From contig NZ_JACJVC010000002.1 of assembly GCF_023369555.1 (NCBI RefSeq), forward strand, positions 1 through 64,000: DNA of 64,000 nt. Direction: 5' to 3'. The position numbers and the translations under genes are program-made. This document shows positions 1 through 60,692 of the stretch, piece by piece. This DNA comes from Actinomyces sp. AC-20-1. Its GTDB lineage: Bacteria > Actinomycetota > Actinomycetes > Actinomycetales > Actinomycetaceae. The notes beneath the pieces were generated by a model. The model saw only the letters and a list, made by a program, of their open reading frames with translations. It was not told the origin of the DNA and ran no database searches. Each line of letters starts with the position of its first letter. Within the stretch, counting starts at the first letter, position 1.

Positions 1-50
1 CCGATGGTACTGCACCCGCCAGGGTGTGGGAGAGTAGGACACCGCCGAGC
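1..50 (+). rRNA. rrf: 5S ribosomal RNA, 3' end only
   Basis: The window opens inside a 5S rRNA gene. The bases GATGGTACTGC, then GGGTGTGGGAGAGTAGG and ACACCGCCG, are the conserved loop and 3' helix strand of actinobacterial 5S rRNA, where the last bases pair with the molecule's missing 5' end. The 5' portion and the presumed 16S and 23S genes lie outside the window. The exact 3' end is uncertain by a few bases. Confidence 0.9.
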
Positions 51-65
51 ACCAACCACACAGCA

Positions 66-100: not shown

Positions 101-650
101 CGCTCTACACCCACACACCAACAACACAACCCCACAACGGGGGCGCGCGCGAACAGACACGACACCACCACAGCCAGTCCACCAACGAACCACCACACAC
201 CACACCCCCCTTACAGGACACCACCACACCCCTTCCGGGGCACCACCCACAGACCCCGCCGACACAAGCACGACGACGCAAGCGCGGGGACGCACCACAC
301 AGTGGCCGTGTAGACAGGGCACACCCCCAGCCAATAGAGCCCAGGGCCGGTGAAGGACTCCCACAACCCAGCCCAAAACCGGGCACCCCACCAGCAGGAC
401 CACCTTTGCGGCCAAGGACAACCTGTCTACGCCAGGACAACCACTTGGACGCGCACACGTTGTCCTAGGACCCACACGTTGTCCTCACACACGGGGACAC
501 ACGCCCTCGGTCCTACTCAGCCCATTTAGCTTCTCTCACTTCCTCAGACGCGCTCGACCGCCCCGGTGTCCGGTCTGCAGAGCAGTCGTCGGCCCCAGCT
601 CAGTGCGTCGTCGTCGGCCGCGTCAACAACAGTCGATGGGGCAGCAACGG
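101..650. other. Gene-free region after the rrn operon
   Basis: No convincing gene is seen on either strand; long open frames here are by-products of base composition. From about 101 to 330 the plus strand is extremely rich in A and C and poor in T, a strong local strand asymmetry. From 415 to 485 it holds the phased repeat array listed separately. The rest leads into the terminator of the minus-strand mannosyltransferase gene. Confidence 0.7.
415..485. repeat. Phased AGGACAAC / GTTGTCCT array, copy 1 (four units)
   Basis: Two direct AGGACAAC units (415, 434) are followed by two inverted GTTGTCCT units (459, 478). The start-to-start spacings are 19, 25 and 19 bases. The units can also pair as nested inverted repeats. 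The same units with the same 19-25-19 spacing occur at 59076-59146. The 6-base core TTGTCC is shared with the high-GC DnaA box TTGTCCACA, but no unit here is a full match. This copy lies between two transcription ends (rrn and pmt), so it is not in an obvious promoter. Confidence 0.75.
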
Positions 651-707: not shown

Positions 708-2582
708 TCAGATCCAGCTGTCGAACAGCATGTGCCTGTGCCAGAACTCGTAGGACACCGTCTGCCCGGTCCAGATGGGCCACCACAGCACTGCGAAGAC
801 CACGGCGGCCACCACCAGCACCCCCATGAGGGCGTAACCCTCGCCCCGGGTACGCCACACCGGCGCACCGCTCCACGCCTCGGGCAGGCCCCGACGCATC
901 GGGCGCATCCCGAAGCCGAGGTAGCGCGCGACCGCACCACGGGGAGCCGGCAGTCCCGGCCCGATCTCGCCAGCCGCCAGCAGACGCTCCTCCCGCCGGG
1001 CCTCGGCCGATCCGGGCACGGACCGCAGCAGGCCCGCCGCCGTCCCCAGGGCCAGCACGAGCACCAGCACCACGTAGGGAACGAAGGCGACCGTGTAGAA
1101 GGTGAAGATCGTGCGGTCCCAGTAGAAGAACCAGGGCAGGTACAGGCCCAGGTAGCCCACGAGGGCGACCCACACCCGCCAGTCCCTCCTGATCCCGGCG
1201 AGCACGATGACGCCGAGGACGAGAGCGAGCACGGCCGCCCACCAGATGGGGATGTTCCCGATGGAGGTGATGGCCTGCACGCAGCGACCACCGCCGCAGC
1301 TCGGGAAGCCCAGGTCCTCCTCTGAGGGCCAGAAGAACGAGGTCGGCCTCCACTGGACGAGCCAGCCGGTCGGCTTGGCCATGTAGGGGTGCTCGGAGTC
1401 GAGCCCCACGTGGAAGGCGTACATGGACTGGTGGTACTCAAACAGGTCGTTGAGCGGGTCAGGCAGCCACGCTCGCACCGGTGTCCCGGCGGCCCGCTGC
1501 TCGGCGGCCCACCCGTGCTTGTACGCCCCGACGTGGGCGAACCAGGACCACCAGTTGACCACGTACACGACGAAGGCCGTCGGGACCAGGTGCAGGAAGT
1601 CGAGCACGCCGCGGTGCAGGACGCCGTCGGCCAGCCAGGAGCGGGCATGGACCCGTCGCAGGGCGGTGAGGTCCCAGACGACCACCATGATCCCCATCGC
1701 GGCGAGCAGGTAGGCGCCGGACCACTTGATGGAGCAGGTGAGCCCAGCGCACAGCCCCGCGGCGAGCAACCAGGGCCGCAGGAGTGGTAGCGGCGCCCAG
1801 GCCCCCGGAACGGTGCCGGCGAGGCCGCAGGCGAGCCGGGCGTGGAACCACTCGCGGTCCCTCACAAGCAGGTAGACCGACGCGAGCCCGAAGAACCCGA
1901 CGAAGACGTCGAGCAGGGCGATACGCGACTCGGTGATCCCCACCCCGTCGATGGCGAGCAGCAGCCCCGCGAGCCCGGCCAGCAGGGGGGAGCGGGTCAG
2001 GCGCATGGTCAGGCGCGCGAGGAGGAGGACGGTGAGGACGCCGGCGACGGCGGGCATGAAGCGCCATCCGACGGCGGAGTCCGCCCCGAAGAGCTGCATG
2101 CCGAGCGCGATGAGCCACTTGCCGAGCTGGGGGTGGACGATGAACGACGCCTCCGTCGTGAGGCCGGAGGCGTCACCCTGCTCGAAGAGCCGGTCGGCGC
2201 CCTCAGTCCACACGGACTCGTAGCCGTTGTGCCACAGCGCGTAGGCGTCCTTGACGTAGTAGATCTCGTCGAACATGAGCCCGTTGGGGTGCCCGAGCCC
2301 GATGAGGCGCGTGAGGGCGGCCACCAGGGTGACGACGCCGGTCGCCACCCATCCGCGCAGCCGTACCGCGGGCGCCAGGCTCCAGCCCAGCGGGTCGAGC
2401 CCGAGGAGCTCTCGCAGCCCCTCCTCGGTACGGGTGCTATCGACGTCCTCCGTCGCACCGGTGCCGCTGGGCAGGTCCTCCGCCGTGCGGGCGTTCTGCT
2501 CACCCCCGTCGGCGGCCGGTGGCGTCTCCGGGACAGTGGCGTCTGTGCTGTCGTGGGAGACGGTGCTCGGGTCAGGGCTCAC
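708..2582 (-). CDS. pmt: Protein O-mannosyltransferase (PMT family)
   Basis: A multi-pass membrane glycosyltransferase of the GT39 family. It is expected to transfer mannose from polyprenyl-phosphate-mannose to Ser/Thr residues of proteins exported through Sec. After a disordered acidic N-terminus (about 70 residues), the first membrane span is followed by the family's Asp-Glu pair in [10 protein letters not shown] (residues 105-106), and about ten further hydrophobic segments run to the C-terminus (624 aa). The start is taken as a GTG at 2582, because TAGACT lies 7 bases upstream on the same strand, a leaderless arrangement. An ATG at 2609 would add 9 residues. It diverges from rsmI, as in M. 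tuberculosis Rv1002c/Rv1003. The window's adhesins and lipoproteins are plausible substrates, by inference only. Confidence 0.88.
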
Positions 2583-2589
2583 GGCGGCG

Positions 2590-2612
2590 AGTCTAAGGGG
2601 ACCGTCCATACT
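2590..2612. promoter_or_regulatory. Overlapping divergent promoters of pmt and rsmI
   Basis: On the minus strand, TAGACT (2590-2595) sits 7 bases before the pmt GTG. On the plus strand, CATACT (2607-2612) sits 6 bases before the rsmI ATG. Both spacings put the transcription start on or next to the start codon, so both genes look leaderless and their promoters share a 36-bp gap. Confidence 0.55.
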
Positions 2613-2618
2613 GGCCTC

Positions 2619-3503
2619 ATGACCCATGCCGCATCCGCTCCCGTGAGTGCCGACGACGAGCCCCGCTCCGGCGTCATCACCCTGGCCGCCACCCCCATCG
2701 GCCACACGGGTGACGCCTCGGCCCGCCTGCGGGCAGCCCTGGCCCACGCCGACCTCGTCGCGGCGGAGGACACCCGGCGGCTGCTCAACCTCGCCCAGCG
2801 CCTGGGCGTGCACGTCAGCGGCAGGGTCCTCGCCTTCCACGAGCACAATGAGCGGGAGCGGGCGGCCGAGCTCATCGAGGCGGCCCGTGCGGGCCGCAGC
2901 GTCCTCATGGTCTCCGACGCCGGGATGCCCTCGGTCTCCGACCCCGGTTACCGGCTCGTCGTCGCCGCCACCGAGGCCGGTGTGCCCGTCACCGTCGCCC
3001 CGGGTCCCTCCGCTGTGCTCACGGCTCTGGCACTGTCAGGCCTGGCCAGTGACCGCTTCTGCTTCGAGGGCTTCCTGCCCCGCAAGCCGGGCGAGCAGCG
3101 TCGTGCGCTCGAGGCGCTGGCTGAGGAGCGGCGCACCATGGTGTTCTTCGAGTCCCCGCGCCGTGTGCACCAGACCCTGACGGTGATGGCGCAGGTGCTT
3201 GGCGCCAGCCGCCGGGCCGCCCTGTGCCGTGAGCTGACGAAGACCTACGAGGAGGTGCGCCGTGCCACCCTGGGTGAGCTCGTGGCCTCCACCACCGGTG
3301 AGGTCCTGGGGGAGATCGTGCTCGTCGTCGCCGGCGTGCAGCCGGTGGCGGCCGACCCGCAGGAGGTCGCGCGCGAGGCCCTGGCGCTGGCCGACGACGG
3401 CATGCGCCTCAAGGCGGCGGCGGCCCAGGCGGCGCGGGAGGCGGGGCTGCGCGCCAACGAGGTCTACCGGGCGGCCCTGGCCCTGCGAGGGGCTGCCGGC
3501 TAG
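2619..3503 (+). CDS. rsmI: 16S rRNA (cytidine-1402 2'-O)-methyltransferase RsmI
   Basis: A SAM-dependent methyltransferase of the tetrapyrrole-methylase fold that modifies C1402 in the ribosomal decoding centre. At 294 aa it is of normal length. Visible family motifs are [15 protein letters not shown] near the N-terminus, [34 protein letters not shown] (the SAM-binding region), [13 protein letters not shown] and VFFESPRRV. The ATG at 2619 has no Shine-Dalgarno sequence but has a -10-like box 6 bases upstream, so it is probably leaderless. It is divergent to pmt, which matches the actinobacterial gene order. Confidence 0.93.
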
Positions 3504-31568: not shown

Positions 31569-31628
31569 TCCTCGGTTCGCGCGCGAACTCCCTGAGAGTT
31601 TGCCGCACGTTCGAGCGCAAACCGAGGA
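31569..31628. repeat. Dispersed 60-bp palindromic element, copy A
   Basis: Arms of 19 bases (TCCTCGGTTCGCGCGCGAA and TTCGAGCGCAAACCGAGGA) pair with two G-T type mismatches around a 22-base centre beginning CTCCCTGAGAG. It lies in the 319-bp gap between eno and the FtsB-like gene, which otherwise holds the eno terminator. Same orientation as copy D; copies B and C are reversed. Confidence 0.85.
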
Positions 31629-31714
31629 GTTGGGCGGGGGAGGACGGGGTGGGCGTGAGCGACGCGCCCCGGGGCGTGGAGCGCGCTCCCAGGAGGCTGG
31701 GGCAGGATGCCCCC

Positions 31715-42454: not shown

Positions 42455-42468
42455 GGTCGTACCCGAGC

Positions 42469-42528
42469 TCCTCGGTTTGCGCTCGAAACCACGGGGTTCT
42501 CCCAGGGAGTTCGAGCGCAAACCGAGGA
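42469..42528. repeat. Dispersed 60-bp palindromic element, copy B
   Basis: Perfect arms TCCTCGGTTTGCGCTCGAA / TTCGAGCGCAAACCGAGGA around a 22-base centre; pairing extends outward to 23 bp (GAGC / GCTC). Reverse orientation to copies A and D as judged from the centre (CCCAGGGAG). It lies between the FKBP terminator and the 3' end of the convergent LAATG gene. Confidence 0.9.
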
Positions 42529-42556
42529 GCTCAGGCCGGCGGGGTGGGACGCCGGG

Positions 42557-43652: not shown

Positions 43653-43822
43653 GCTTCTGTTCCTCTGGCGGCCCTGTGGGGCGACATGGCTCACCTCACC
43701 GTCCCGGGCGGAGCCTGGCCCCGGGAGACGGGTGCGCTCCGGAGCCCTGAGGGGCGGCGCTCCGTGAGCCTCGATGAGCCCGCGGCGCCTCGGGCTCGGC
43801 TGCCGTGGCCCTACCCCCGACC

Positions 43823-43882
43823 TCCTCGGTTTGCGCTCGAAACCCCGGGGTTCCCCCAGGGAGTTCGAGCGCAAACCGAGGA
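43823..43882. repeat. Dispersed 60-bp palindromic element, copy C
   Basis: Arms identical to copy B and perfectly paired; the centre differs at three positions. It lies in the 430-bp gap between the divergent LAATG gene and ilvD. The remainder of that gap holds the LAATG promoter and the ilvD promoter. Confidence 0.9.
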
Positions 43883-43983
43883 GTTGGGACAGGGGGTGGG
43901 GCTGGGGTGGGGCAGAAGGGAGCGGGTAAGGGCCGCCTTGGTCCGGGTGATGGCCTCCACGACGGCGCCGGGCGCCGCCCCAC

Positions 43984-56266: not shown

Positions 56267-56330
56267 GGCCCGAACGCTACCGGGACGGTGCCCGCGGGCC
56301 ACCCCGCTTCACTCATCGCGAGCGCCCACC

Positions 56331-56390
56331 TCCTCGGCTTGCGCGCGAGCTCCCTGGGGTTTTGCCGTACGCTCGTGCGCAAAACGAGGA
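56331..56390. repeat. Dispersed 60-bp palindromic element, copy D
   Basis: Arms TCCTCGGCTTGCGCGCGAG and CTCGTGCGCAAAACGAGGA are the most diverged of the four copies but keep length and register; the centre begins CTCCCTGGGG as in copy A. It lies in the gap between greA (3' end) and msrA (5' end), both on the minus strand. Confidence 0.8.
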
Positions 56391-56426
56391 TCTCGGGGGC
56401 GGGGCGGCGTCGGGTGGCCTTGTGGG

Positions 56427-58218: not shown

Positions 58219-58989
58219 ATGGCTGGCAACAACCTCGTCTACGACCTCTACGAGCGCCGGCTCGCCTCCCAGGTTGAGGCCGACCGCGTGCCCGAGCACG
58301 TCGGCGTCATCCTCGACGGCAACCGCCGCTGGGCCAGGCAGATGGGCATCGGCACCTCCCAGGGCCACAAGCGCGGCGCCGACAAGATCGAGGACTTCCT
58401 CGGCTGGGCCCACACCGCCGGCGTCAAGGTCGTCACCCTGTGGCTGCTGAGCACCGACAACCTCAACCGCGACCCCGCCGAGCTCTCCCCCCTGCTCGAC
58501 ATCATCGCCACCGCCGTCGAGGGCCTGGCCGGAGCCGGCACCTGGCGCCTGCGCCTGGTGGGCGCCGTCGACCTCCTCCCCGAGCCCGTCGCCCTGCGCC
58601 TGCGCGCCGCCGCCGACTCCACCCGCCCCGACGACGCCGACGGGCGCATGCAGGTCAACGTCGCCGTCGGCTACGGCGGCCGCCAGGAGATCGCCGATGC
58701 CGTGCGCGACGTCCTGCGCGAGCGCGCCGCTGCCGGCGTCACCCTCGAGGAGGTCGCCGAGACCCTGTGCGAGGAGGACATCACCGCCCACCTCTACACC
58801 AAGGGCCAGCCGGACCCCGAGCTCGTCATCCGCACCTCCGGCGAGCAGCGCCTGTCCGGCTTCCTCCTGTGGCAGTCCGTCCACTCCGAGTACTACTTCT
58901 GCGAGGTGTACTGGCCGGACTTCCGCCGTATCGACTTCCTGCGGGCCCTGCGCGACTACGCGCGCCGCGAGCGTCGCCTGGGACGTTGA
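58219..58989 (+). CDS. uppS: cis-Prenyltransferase (undecaprenyl/decaprenyl diphosphate synthase family)
   Basis: A 256-aa Z-type isoprenyl diphosphate synthase, producing polyprenyl carrier lipid or a short Z-farnesyl intermediate. Motifs are HVGVILDGNRRWARQMGI (catalytic Asp), GHKRGADKIEDFLGWAHTAGVKVVTLWLLSTDNLNR, VNVAVGYGGRQEIADAV, DPELVIRTSGEQRLSGFLLWQSVHSEYYF (signature) and WPDFRRIDFLRAL. The pairing with trhA resembles Rv1086, a Z-farnesyl diphosphate synthase, so chain length is uncertain. The N-terminus is short. The ribosome site is weak. Confidence 0.93.
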   Translation: MAGNNLVYDLYERRLASQVEADRVPEHVGVILDGNRRWARQMGIGTSQGHKRGADKIEDFLGWAHTAGVKVVTLWLLSTDNLNRDPAELSPLLDIIATAVEGLAGAGTWRLRLVGAVDLLPEPVALRLRAAADSTRPDDADGRMQVNVAVGYGGRQEIADAVRDVLRERAAAGVTLEEVAETLCEEDITAHLYTKGQPDPELVIRTSGEQRLSGFLLWQSVHSEYYFCEVYWPDFRRIDFLRALRDYARRERRLGR

Positions 58990-59070
58990 CGGTCCCGACG
59001 GCGGGTGGTCAGCAGGCCCGCCGTCCGGGTGATGGGTAGGCGCCGCGCGAGCCGCCAGGACCACTTCCGT

Positions 59071-59185
59071 GCAGCAGGACAACCTGTGCGCACCAGGACA
59101 ATCTCATGGCGTCTACCAGGTTGTCCTGCTGCAGGCAGGTTGTCCATATGTGCGCCACGTTGTCCAAGCGCGTGCACGTTGTCCG
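59071..59185. repeat. Phased AGGACAAC / GTTGTCC array, copy 2 (six units)
   Basis: Units start at 59076 (AGGACAAC), 59095 (AGGACAAT), 59120 (GTTGTCCT), 59139 (GTTGTCCA), 59159 (GTTGTCCA) and 59178 (GTTGTCCG). Spacings are 19, 25, 19, 20 and 19 bases. The first four reproduce the geometry of copy 1 at 415-485. GCAGCAGGACAACCT (59071-59085) pairs perfectly with AGGTTGTCCTGCTGC (59118-59132), giving a possible 15-bp stem. The array fills much of the 389-bp gap between uppS and phoH; no gene is seen in that gap. Confidence 0.8.
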
Positions 59186-59378
59186 TGTTGCCGGCGCGTG
59201 TGCGCAGTTGCCGGCGTGCGCGGGCGTGTGCGACGGGCCCGACGGCGGGGCTGCTGAGCGTGTGCTGACCGACCGCGCCAACCACACCAACCGCGTGTCG
59301 TGGGTCACAGGCGGCTTACCCTGGTCACCACGAGGCGGCCGGCCGCCGGGGCGCCGCCACGACCCCTGGAGCGGCGAC

Positions 59379-60692
59379 ATGCGCACCTACGTCCTGGACA
59401 CCTCCGTCCTGCTCTCCGACCCCCGAGCCCTCCTGCGCTTCGCCGAGCACGCCGTCATCGTGCCCGTCGTCGTCATCACCGAGCTCGAGGGCAAGCGGCA
59501 CCACCCCGAGCTCGGCTACTTCGCCCGCTCCGCCCTGCGCCTGCTCGACTCCCTGCGTGAGACGCACGGTCGGCTCGACCGCCCCGTCCCGCTCAACGAC
59601 CTCGGCGGCACCCTGCACGTCGACCTCGACAGCGACGACCCCGCCGTCCTGCCCACGGGCATGCGCCTGGGGGACAACGACACCCGCATCCTCAGCGTCG
59701 CCGTCACCCTCGCGCGCGCGGGCGAGGACGTCATCGTCGTCTCCAAGGACCTGCCCATGCGGATCAAGGCTGCCGCCGTCGGCCTCCAGTCGGACGAGTA
59801 CCGCGCCCAGCTCGCCACCGACTCCGGCTACACCGGCATGACGAGCCTGGCCGTCAGCGCCGAGGAGATGAACGCCCTGTGGGAGGACGAGTCCCTGCCC
59901 CTCGAGGGGCTGTCCGACGGCGAGACCGCCGCCCGCCTGGCCGAGGAGCCCGTCCACACCGGCGTCACGGTCACCTCCCCGCGCGGCTCCGCCCTGGCCA
60001 CCGTCGTCGACGGCGCCCTGCGCCTGGTGCGACCCGACCGGGAGGTCTTCGGCGTGCGCGGGCGCTCCGCCGAGCAGCGCGTCGCCATCGACCACCTGCT
60101 CAACCCGGCCATCGGCATCGTCTCCCTGGGCGGGCGCGCCGGCACCGGCAAGTCCGCGCTCGCCCTGAGCGCCGGGATCGACGCCGTCGTCAACCGACGA
60201 GAGCACCGCAAGGTCCTCGTCTTCCGCCCCCTGTACGCCGTGGGCGGCCAGACCCTCGGCTTCCTGCCCGGCGACAGCGGCGAGAAGATGCAGCCCTGGT
60301 CCGAGGCCGTCTTCGACACCCTCACCTCCGTCATCCCCGCCGAGCGCATCGACAGGATCGTCCAGCTCGGTCAGATCGAGGTCCTGCCGCTGACGCACAT
60401 CCGCGGGCGCTCCTTCCACGACGCCTTCGTCATCGTCGACGAGGCGCAGTCCCTCGAGCGCAACGTCCTGCTCACCGTGCTCTCGCGCGTGGGGCAGAAC
60501 TCCAAGGTGGTGCTCACCCACGACGTCGCCCAGCGCGACAACCTGCGTGTGGGGCGCTGGGACGGCGTCGCCTCCGTCATCGAGTCGCTCAAGGGCAACC
60601 CGCTGTTCGCGCACATCGACCTCGTGCGCACCGAGCGCAGCGAGATCGCCGAGCTCGTCACGACGATGCTCGACGACGTGCCCCTGTACTGA
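59379..60692 (+). CDS. phoH: PhoH2-type protein (PIN nuclease domain fused to PhoH ATPase)
   Basis: A 437-aa fusion protein. The N-terminal PIN domain has [28 protein letters not shown] and [27 protein letters not shown] (acidic catalytic residues). A linker domain is followed by the PhoH RNA-helicase-like ATPase: [18 protein letters not shown] (Walker A), [38 protein letters not shown] (Walker B) and [10 protein letters not shown]. PhoH2 proteins unwind and cleave RNA in a sequence-dependent manner and are often toxin-like or stress-related. The ATG at 59379 is chosen because upstream frame runs through the repeat array; GAGCGGC upstream is a weak ribosome site. Confidence 0.93.

Follow-up and report, generated by a model that had tools for sequence, protein, structure and literature searches.

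The attC sites of integrons, which are imperfect inverted repeats, can stand on either side of toxin-antitoxin cassettes, and transposon ends of the Tn7, Mu, and Tn402 type carry several transposase sites arranged head-to-tail at about 19 to 22 bp. A REP unit is, in its own right, an imperfect palindrome. According to the part of PMC3116915 used here, REPINs and BIMEs are formed by inverted pairs of REP sequences. In the part of PMC4596501 used here, BrickBuilt, a MITE of Porphyromonas gingivalis, is described as a non-coding intergenic mobile element containing tandem 23-nt units and present in 19 copies. We describe here a family of arrays from Actinomyces that resembles each of these systems in part. 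Among the titles and abstract openings searched, a scope that leaves out most subscription journals, we recognized no published description of such arrays.

The window, that is, the whole stretch of 64,000 nucleotides analyzed from Actinomyces sp. AC-20-1, carries two arrays of a short unit repeated in direct and then in inverted orientation. A re-reading of the sequence found both of them where the first-pass annotation had placed them, with all of the units it had listed; one unit upstream in each array (AGGACCAC at 396 and at 59057) had gone unlisted. Array 1 (396..485, no strand assigned) consists of plus units at 396, 415, and 434 and minus units at 459 and 478. Besides the upstream unit, these read AGGACAAC at 415 and 434 and GTTGTCCT at 459 and 478, and they surround a 17-bp centre at 442-458 (CACTTGGACGCGCACAC). 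Array 2 (59057..59185, likewise without strand) consists of plus units at 59057, 59076, and 59095 and minus units at 59120, 59139, 59159, and 59178 around a 17-bp centre at 59103-59119; here AGGACAAT stands at 59095 (one mismatch), TGGACAAC at 59139 and 59159, and CGGACAAC at 59178. The step from plus to minus measures 25 bp by octamer, or 24 bp between 7-mer starts, and same-strand steps are 19 bp throughout except for that from 59139 to 59159 (20 bp). With at most one mismatch, the octamer occurs 86 times in the window compared to 28.9 expected (100 shuffles, maximum 44). Its remaining exact copies in the window (6253, 22848, 22893, and 29493) form no such arrays.

Array 1 is preceded by what looks, by resemblance, like the 3' terminus of a 5S rRNA gene (1..60, plus strand), a cut end that gave no match to Rfam at the gathering threshold. 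It is followed by a PMT-family mannosyltransferase gene (708..2846, minus strand; hexamer gene finder and Pfam). Array 2 lies between the undecaprenyl diphosphate synthase gene uppS (58219..58989, plus strand; Prenyltransf) and the gene of a PIN-PhoH protein (59226..60692, plus strand), for which the later ATG at 59379 may be the true start.

The arrays proved to be a genome-wide feature. The genome of this strain (2.70 Mb in 47 contigs; labeled G000, with Gnnn for genomes and Lnnn for loci) holds at least 29 of them, spread over 12 contigs and usually made of two to five direct copies of the core GGACAAC, a 17-bp centre, and two to five inverted copies, at a pitch of 19 bp. Pairs of AGGACAAC 19 bp apart, allowing at most one mismatch, number 101, compared to 1 for the reversed control. 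In the 29 arrays, a step of 19 bp between same-strand neighbors was counted 127 times and the second most frequent step, 20 bp, four times, and the 24-bp step from plus to minus (7-mer starts, cores with at most one mismatch) 26 times. When cores had to match at 6/7 positions or more with strict spacing, 26 of the 29 had two to five units per side; the other three are interrupted by a 20-bp step or have decayed cores. The core is strongly conserved, whereas the linkers follow only a weak consensus (CTGC...); the centre consensus is CTG..GG..GYC..CAG, and the outer units are often CGGACCAC. Flanks are not conserved among the copies, and the earlier statement that unit and spacing, and not the whole stretch, are conserved is supported. 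The octamer pairs at 19 bp, which the first-pass annotation had proposed to scan for, are thus enriched over the control, and the arrays are not unique to one locus. The observation behind that annotation was real and understated the extent of the arrays, which occur throughout this genome and in part of the genus. A second family of dispersed palindromes, about 70 to 90 bp long (CTCCTCGGTTTGCGCTCGAA...TTCGCGCGCAAACCGAGGAG) and unrelated to the GGACAAC arrays, has copies at 31569-31649, 42462-42535, 43816-43888, and 56322-56404 of the window, at 3332-3419 of L038, and at 2236-2324 of L043.

Twenty-eight of the 29 arrays overlap no called gene, and called coding sequence makes up 87% of the 230 kb examined; the sole overlap, at 6413 of L037, is with a weak ORF. 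A called gene is present on both sides of 28 arrays (hexamer gene finder), the array at 434 of the window having no called left gene. Ten of these lie between convergent genes (one such assignment depending on weak ORFs), 14 between tandem genes, and 4 between divergent genes, compared to 2, 11, and 8, respectively, for gaps of 120 bp or more between genes in the window. Only in 6 of the 14 tandem cases is the array closer to the upstream gene's 3' end. Neighbors with a Pfam match are mostly ordinary cellular genes. One array, at 3532 of L053, lies between the convergent genes for phosphomethylpyrimidine kinase and dnaB. A transcription-factor regulon was rejected, since promoters were not preferred (4/28 divergent).

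To see how widely the arrays occur, we searched other genomes with the exact GGACAAC geometry, allowing one mismatch. It was found in 3 of 213 genomes of the family (G000, G029, and A. bovis, G004) and in 1 of 396 genomes of the phylum, that of our strain. Without mismatch, genome_contigs, from which records near our strain are possibly absent, returned 12 stretches, all from A. bovis, and the G004 arrays are the same in sequence as the loci of A. bovis NCTC11535. A generalized pattern, GGACNNC-12-GGACNNC-17-GNNGTCC, matched 31 of the 213 family genomes. At least eight forward matches were obtained in 10 of 49 Actinomyces genomes (G026, 58; G012, 38; G031, 31; G000, 22; G029, 19; G043, 13; G004, 12; G013, 11; G027, 9; G030, 8). 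Fewer than eight were found in the other 39, twelve of which had 1 to 5 matches in all, and 27 of the 49 had none on either strand. Other genera yielded 1 or 2 matches in 9 of 164 genomes, and the reversed control yielded 1 to 3 in 6 of 213, with more than one in a single genome. A restriction to three species therefore holds for the GGACAAC core only, and this view was dropped after the generalized search. Among the places listed, the core is species typical while the geometry is constant: GGACAAC in G000 and G004; GGACCAC in G013, in most of G029, and in the few matches of G007 and G019; and GGACCGC, often together with GGACCCC, in G012, G026, G027, G030, and G031. The one G043 array that was read also has the core GGACCGC. 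Plasmid and phage records contained no match to one array of our strain (L050), and viral contigs gave none to the full pattern and two contigs with three direct units; carriage by plasmids or phages was rejected on these grounds.

The spacing was also recovered by a de novo scan for two direct and two inverted 7-mers at periods of 12 to 30, from which 7-mers with fewer than three different bases were excluded. In 555 kb of mainly relatives' DNA, a sample enriched in that much of it had been fetched for GGACAAC arrays, period 19 gave 172 matches and every other period at most 18. Because matches overlap, as frames of one array or in overlapping loci, we relied on cluster counts, which after merging of exact duplicates were 21 for period 19 and at most 3 for the others. 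The same sample also contained arrays with the cores GGACCAC and GGACCGC that have the identical geometry. In 800 kb sampled regardless of arrays (200 kb each of G018 and G026, 140 kb each of G006 and G050, and a further 120 kb of G029), there were five clusters at period 19 and three each at 20, 21, and 24, with 23 matches at period 19 compared to 19 at period 20. G008, G011, G018, G026, and G029 also have palindromic arrays whose cores are different and whose period is 19, 20, or 22 bp. Those with a 20-bp period, at ~13264 of L207 (G026), ~446 of L188 (G011), and ~5643 of L224 (G029), have the cores CACGACC, GTCGTACC, and CTCGTTC, respectively, and are possibly sister families of the 19-bp arrays. 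Those with a 22-bp period and the core GAGACCGGTCGA lie near prfB, at ~1974-2070 of L131 (G018) and ~1990-2090 of L132 (G008), in the same prfB neighborhood as the L032 arrays of our strain.

We compared the array sites of our strain with those of its close sister G029, which is 92-96% identical in the genes compared and 82-93% identical over the stretches compared. Six orthologous sites were compared, chosen for having both sides and not drawn at random. At three of them (uppS-phoH, the carbamoyltransferase locus L039, and ettA-prfB), G029 lacks an array, and at two it has another core: the array beside its PMT gene is of the GGACCAC type and part of a larger element, and CTCACAnnnTTGCAC palindromes stand on either side at its MntA/HepT locus. 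At the sixth site, the ABC transporter/holin locus, a GGACAAC array is common to both genomes; this location is occupied in G026 as well, which looks like long vertical retention. In the opposite direction, seven regions of G029 were fetched for their GGACAAC arrays, and this locus is the only one of them that matches an array locus of our strain. No target-site duplication or clean empty site was seen at the G029 sites compared, where the DNA between genes has diverged too far for exact insertion junctions to be read. A case with sharp edges is provided by L041 and L052, which are identical at 17-20 of 20 positions in six 20-nt bins (120 bp) and at 4-9 of 20 in the eleven outer bins. Judging from this alignment, the likeness could equally be due to a recent copy or to a gene-conversion tract between two existing arrays.

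In some relatives, the arrays lie inside longer non-coding elements of two kinds, both derived from insertion sequences (IS). In G029, the array is part of an element of ~1,045 bp with inverted ends of ~57 bp, present in at least eight near full-length copies, seven of them at places listed as arrays. The left part of this element matches the end and the N-terminal region of an IS of G006 that has integrase-core and IS481 zipper domains. Many array copies of G012 and G026 lie within an element of ~560 bp with inverted ends. Thirteen copies were aligned; 12 remain similar as far as the right end (...ACAACCGGACCTAG), and the left end that matches it, AGGTC..GTTGTGT, is seen in 4. Among the matches listed, this left end corresponds to ISs of other congeners, and the two that were checked encode DUF4096 and DDE_Tnp_1 transposases. 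Terminal inverted repeats are thus found on the larger elements of G012/G026 and G029, and the arrays of our strain have no such surroundings. None of G000, G004, and G029 has PF09299, the domain of transposases of the Mu/TnsB/TniA type, which was detected in only one of the 49 genus genomes, G022, which has zero array matches by the generalized pattern. Ends of the Tn7/Mu type were rejected, since the domain is absent from the three genomes with GGACAAC arrays.

Four pairs of arrays in our strain lie less than 3 kb apart, and all four enclose accessory-looking genes: FitA-like RHH and PIN genes (L032), an MntA-like gene with a HepT-like gene that looks broken (L044), an uncharacterized protein of ~310 amino acids (L046), and HTH genes (L037). 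The arrays of L032 and L044 are near-identical direct repeats of 196-278 bp that extend past the array. The L044 duplicate takes in 18 bp of a neighboring gene, presumably of the ROK type, and the duplication is therefore not bounded by the array. The two L046 arrays differ from each other in centre and linkers. The holin locus has one array in our strain, array-gene-array in G026, and array-gene-channel gene-array in G029; its first gene is homologous between G026 and G029 (58%) and also to the gene between the L046 arrays (53-57%). A. bovis also has an array pair, at L084. In G013, pairs with spacings of 2.7 and 4.5 kb, and in G030 one with a spacing of 6.4 kb, surround genes that look ordinary, as judged from the start of each protein. 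G045, examined over 120 kb and at its ettA-prfB locus, carries at this locus a VapBC-like pair beside which no array was detected. These pairs and G045 weaken the idea that toxin-antitoxin genes travel with the arrays as a rule.

Three further observations concern the genes beside arrays. At 3682-4349 of L044, the gene of the MntA-like antitoxin stands beside a HepT-like toxin gene that is apparently interrupted, a 50-amino-acid open piece matching the end of the HepT profile. Members of an uncharacterized family of ~310-360 amino acids lie beside arrays in three species (L046, 3779-4714; L122, 923-1984; L276, 1129-2208) and have the invariant sequence VDF.WP..GVIGEFDG.VKY. This protein gave no Pfam match below an E value of 0.05 and no NCBIfam match at 0.01, and no relative of solved structure in the PDB (best E value, 0.61); it may be AbiEi-like / PD-(D/E)XK-like. 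Finally, at ~620-860 of L122 in G029, a long run of 20-bp units, CACTTCGGACCA(C/G)CAGCGGG, is followed by inverted units and adjoins a gene homologous to the between-array gene of our L046 and of L276 in G026.

We then asked whether the arrays act as double-stranded DNA or as hairpins. Hairpins acting in single-stranded form, either as REPIN/RAYT-like replicons or as transcribed 3' hairpins, would fit dispersed intergenic inverted repeats of REPIN-like size. Indeed, six arrays are predicted to fold better than shuffles (z from -3.2 to -11.1), and in L075 of A. bovis the inverted repeat is perfect, linkers included. Good folds are, however, what inverted repeats must give, and the two arms do not covary. 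Counting units outward until the core fell below 5/7 (linkers) or 6/7 (octamers) matches, facing linkers were alike at 5.26 of 12 positions in our strain compared to 5.20 with the linkers of other arrays (54 comparisons; P = 0.39), and at 7.27 compared to 7.11 in A. bovis (15 comparisons; P = 0.36). Mirrored octamers were identical in 39 of 73 cases compared to 48% expected (P = 0.11). Compensatory changes between facing arms were thus found neither for linkers nor for octamers in the arrays tested. Linkers of the same arm were more alike in our strain (6.25), as expected from local duplication of units, and not more alike in A. bovis (6.17). In addition, single units are not palindromic, and tandem genes show no preference for the 3' end. 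A continuous RNA or DNA hairpin was rejected, with L075 as the exception, and the structured RNA that had been suggested at first is not supported; core-only stems with open linkers may still fit the data, and we regard hairpin-acting elements as unlikely. Mirrored linkers and cores that do not covary fit double-stranded protein-binding sites better, and a double-stranded binding array is the reading that we prefer on these sequence comparisons. At 10.5 bp per turn, 19 bp amounts to 1.81 turns, rotating each unit by about -69 degrees, and 25 bp to 2.38 turns. From the early proposal of a protein bound on one helix face about every two turns, the bound protein is retained as the best reading, and a single face is not supported. 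A DnaA-titrating cluster had also been proposed, on the strength of the TTGTCC shared between the unit and TTGTCCACA, which we take to be the actinobacterial DnaA box. However, none of 180 units of our strain (core at 6/7 or more) matches TTGTCCACA / TGTGGACAA, the three bases before GGACAAC being CAA, GCA, or CCA in 97 of them; the relatives' cores GGACCAC and GGACCGC depart from the consensus; and the 6.5 kb around dnaA contain TTGTCCACA twice and no array. DnaA titration was rejected, and we consider it extremely improbable.

Two other explanations give the arrays a role for the host or for its accessory genes. Sites that organize or insulate the chromosome, bound by a nucleoid, segregation, or transcription-stopping protein, would account for fixed geometry, for the spread between genes over 12 contigs, and for the excess of convergent positions over the window gaps. 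Such sites would hardly be expected to be scarce in 39 of 49 genus genomes and missing from 27, or to differ between sister species, and only 6 of 14 tandem arrays lie nearer the upstream 3' end; we think this explanation quite unlikely. The arrays might instead play a part like that of attC, as sites at which small accessory cassettes recombine: a toxin-antitoxin-like cassette would enter at an array and leave one on each side, single arrays being empty sites. Duplication of the array around candidate cassettes was found in four of four pairs of our strain and at the L276/L122 locus, the repeats of L044 and L032 reach beyond the array, the holin locus runs from one array to array-gene-gene-array with a homologous first gene, and other-core palindromes flank the MntA/HepT pair of G029. 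It was not found in the G013 and G030 pairs with their ordinary-looking genes, and the VapBC-like pair of G045, the L044 duplication beyond the array, and the dissimilar L046 arrays do not fit it either, so that we hold the cassette explanation to be rather unlikely. A bolder form of it, a dispersed integron-like cassette system of Actinomyces in which a putative DNA-binding recombinase and its sites co-evolve, each species with its own core word and single arrays as empty sites, appears improbable to us. In this form, protein-bound sites of fixed geometry and rapidly changing recognition code would let toxin-antitoxin and other accessory cassettes come and go at many positions of the chromosome.

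The most economical reading of these data is an intergenic repeat that is non-autonomous and bound by a protein, that moves or converts, and whose recognition code drifts. Specifically, we give about an even chance to the arrays being short intergenic elements of Actinomyces, non-coding, non-autonomous, and either mobile or copy-converted, whose arms would be bound by a putative protein of drifting specificity; the first-pass annotation had come close to this with the arms of a small mobile element. The functional part would be the double-stranded array of half-sites, with two opposed arms, a 19-bp pitch, and a 17-bp centre. A putative protein encoded elsewhere may bind cooperatively along each arm, a unit every 19 bp, and may pair both arms across the centre. 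Its specificity would drift while its stacking geometry stayed fixed, and cores would then turn over genome-wide in step. Copying and homogenization of the arrays could be the work of this putative binder or of ordinary ectopic gene conversion, and the arrays may also serve as recombination sites around accessory genes. If so, constant geometry with a species-typical core within one genus would record a change in binder specificity without loss of stacking geometry, and a binder that was a recombinase would explain the toxin-antitoxin cassettes between housekeeping genes in these bacteria.

Compared to known systems, the arrays share head-to-tail sites in each of two opposed arms with the ends of Tn7, Mu, and Tn402 and differ from them in that nothing is carried between the arms, PF09299 is absent from the three genomes with GGACAAC arrays, and no target duplication was seen. 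Like attC sites, they are imperfect inverted repeats able to flank toxin-antitoxin cassettes, but they are dispersed and have multi-unit arms. With BrickBuilt, as described in the part of PMC4596501 used here, they have in common tandem short units within a non-coding intergenic mobile element; its units follow one another without spacers, whereas the Actinomyces arrays have two opposed arms, variable linkers, and either MITE ends or none. Similar to REPINs and BIMEs, they are short inverted repeats, dispersed between genes, that increase in number within a genome and vary in sequence from one lineage to another. Unlike these, their arms usually contain two to five units at a locked 19-bp pitch and do not covary, and the units GGACAAC, GGACCAC, and TTGGACCGC, by reading, are not self-complementary as a REP would be. 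Overall, we read the Actinomyces arrays as a REPIN/MITE-like family.
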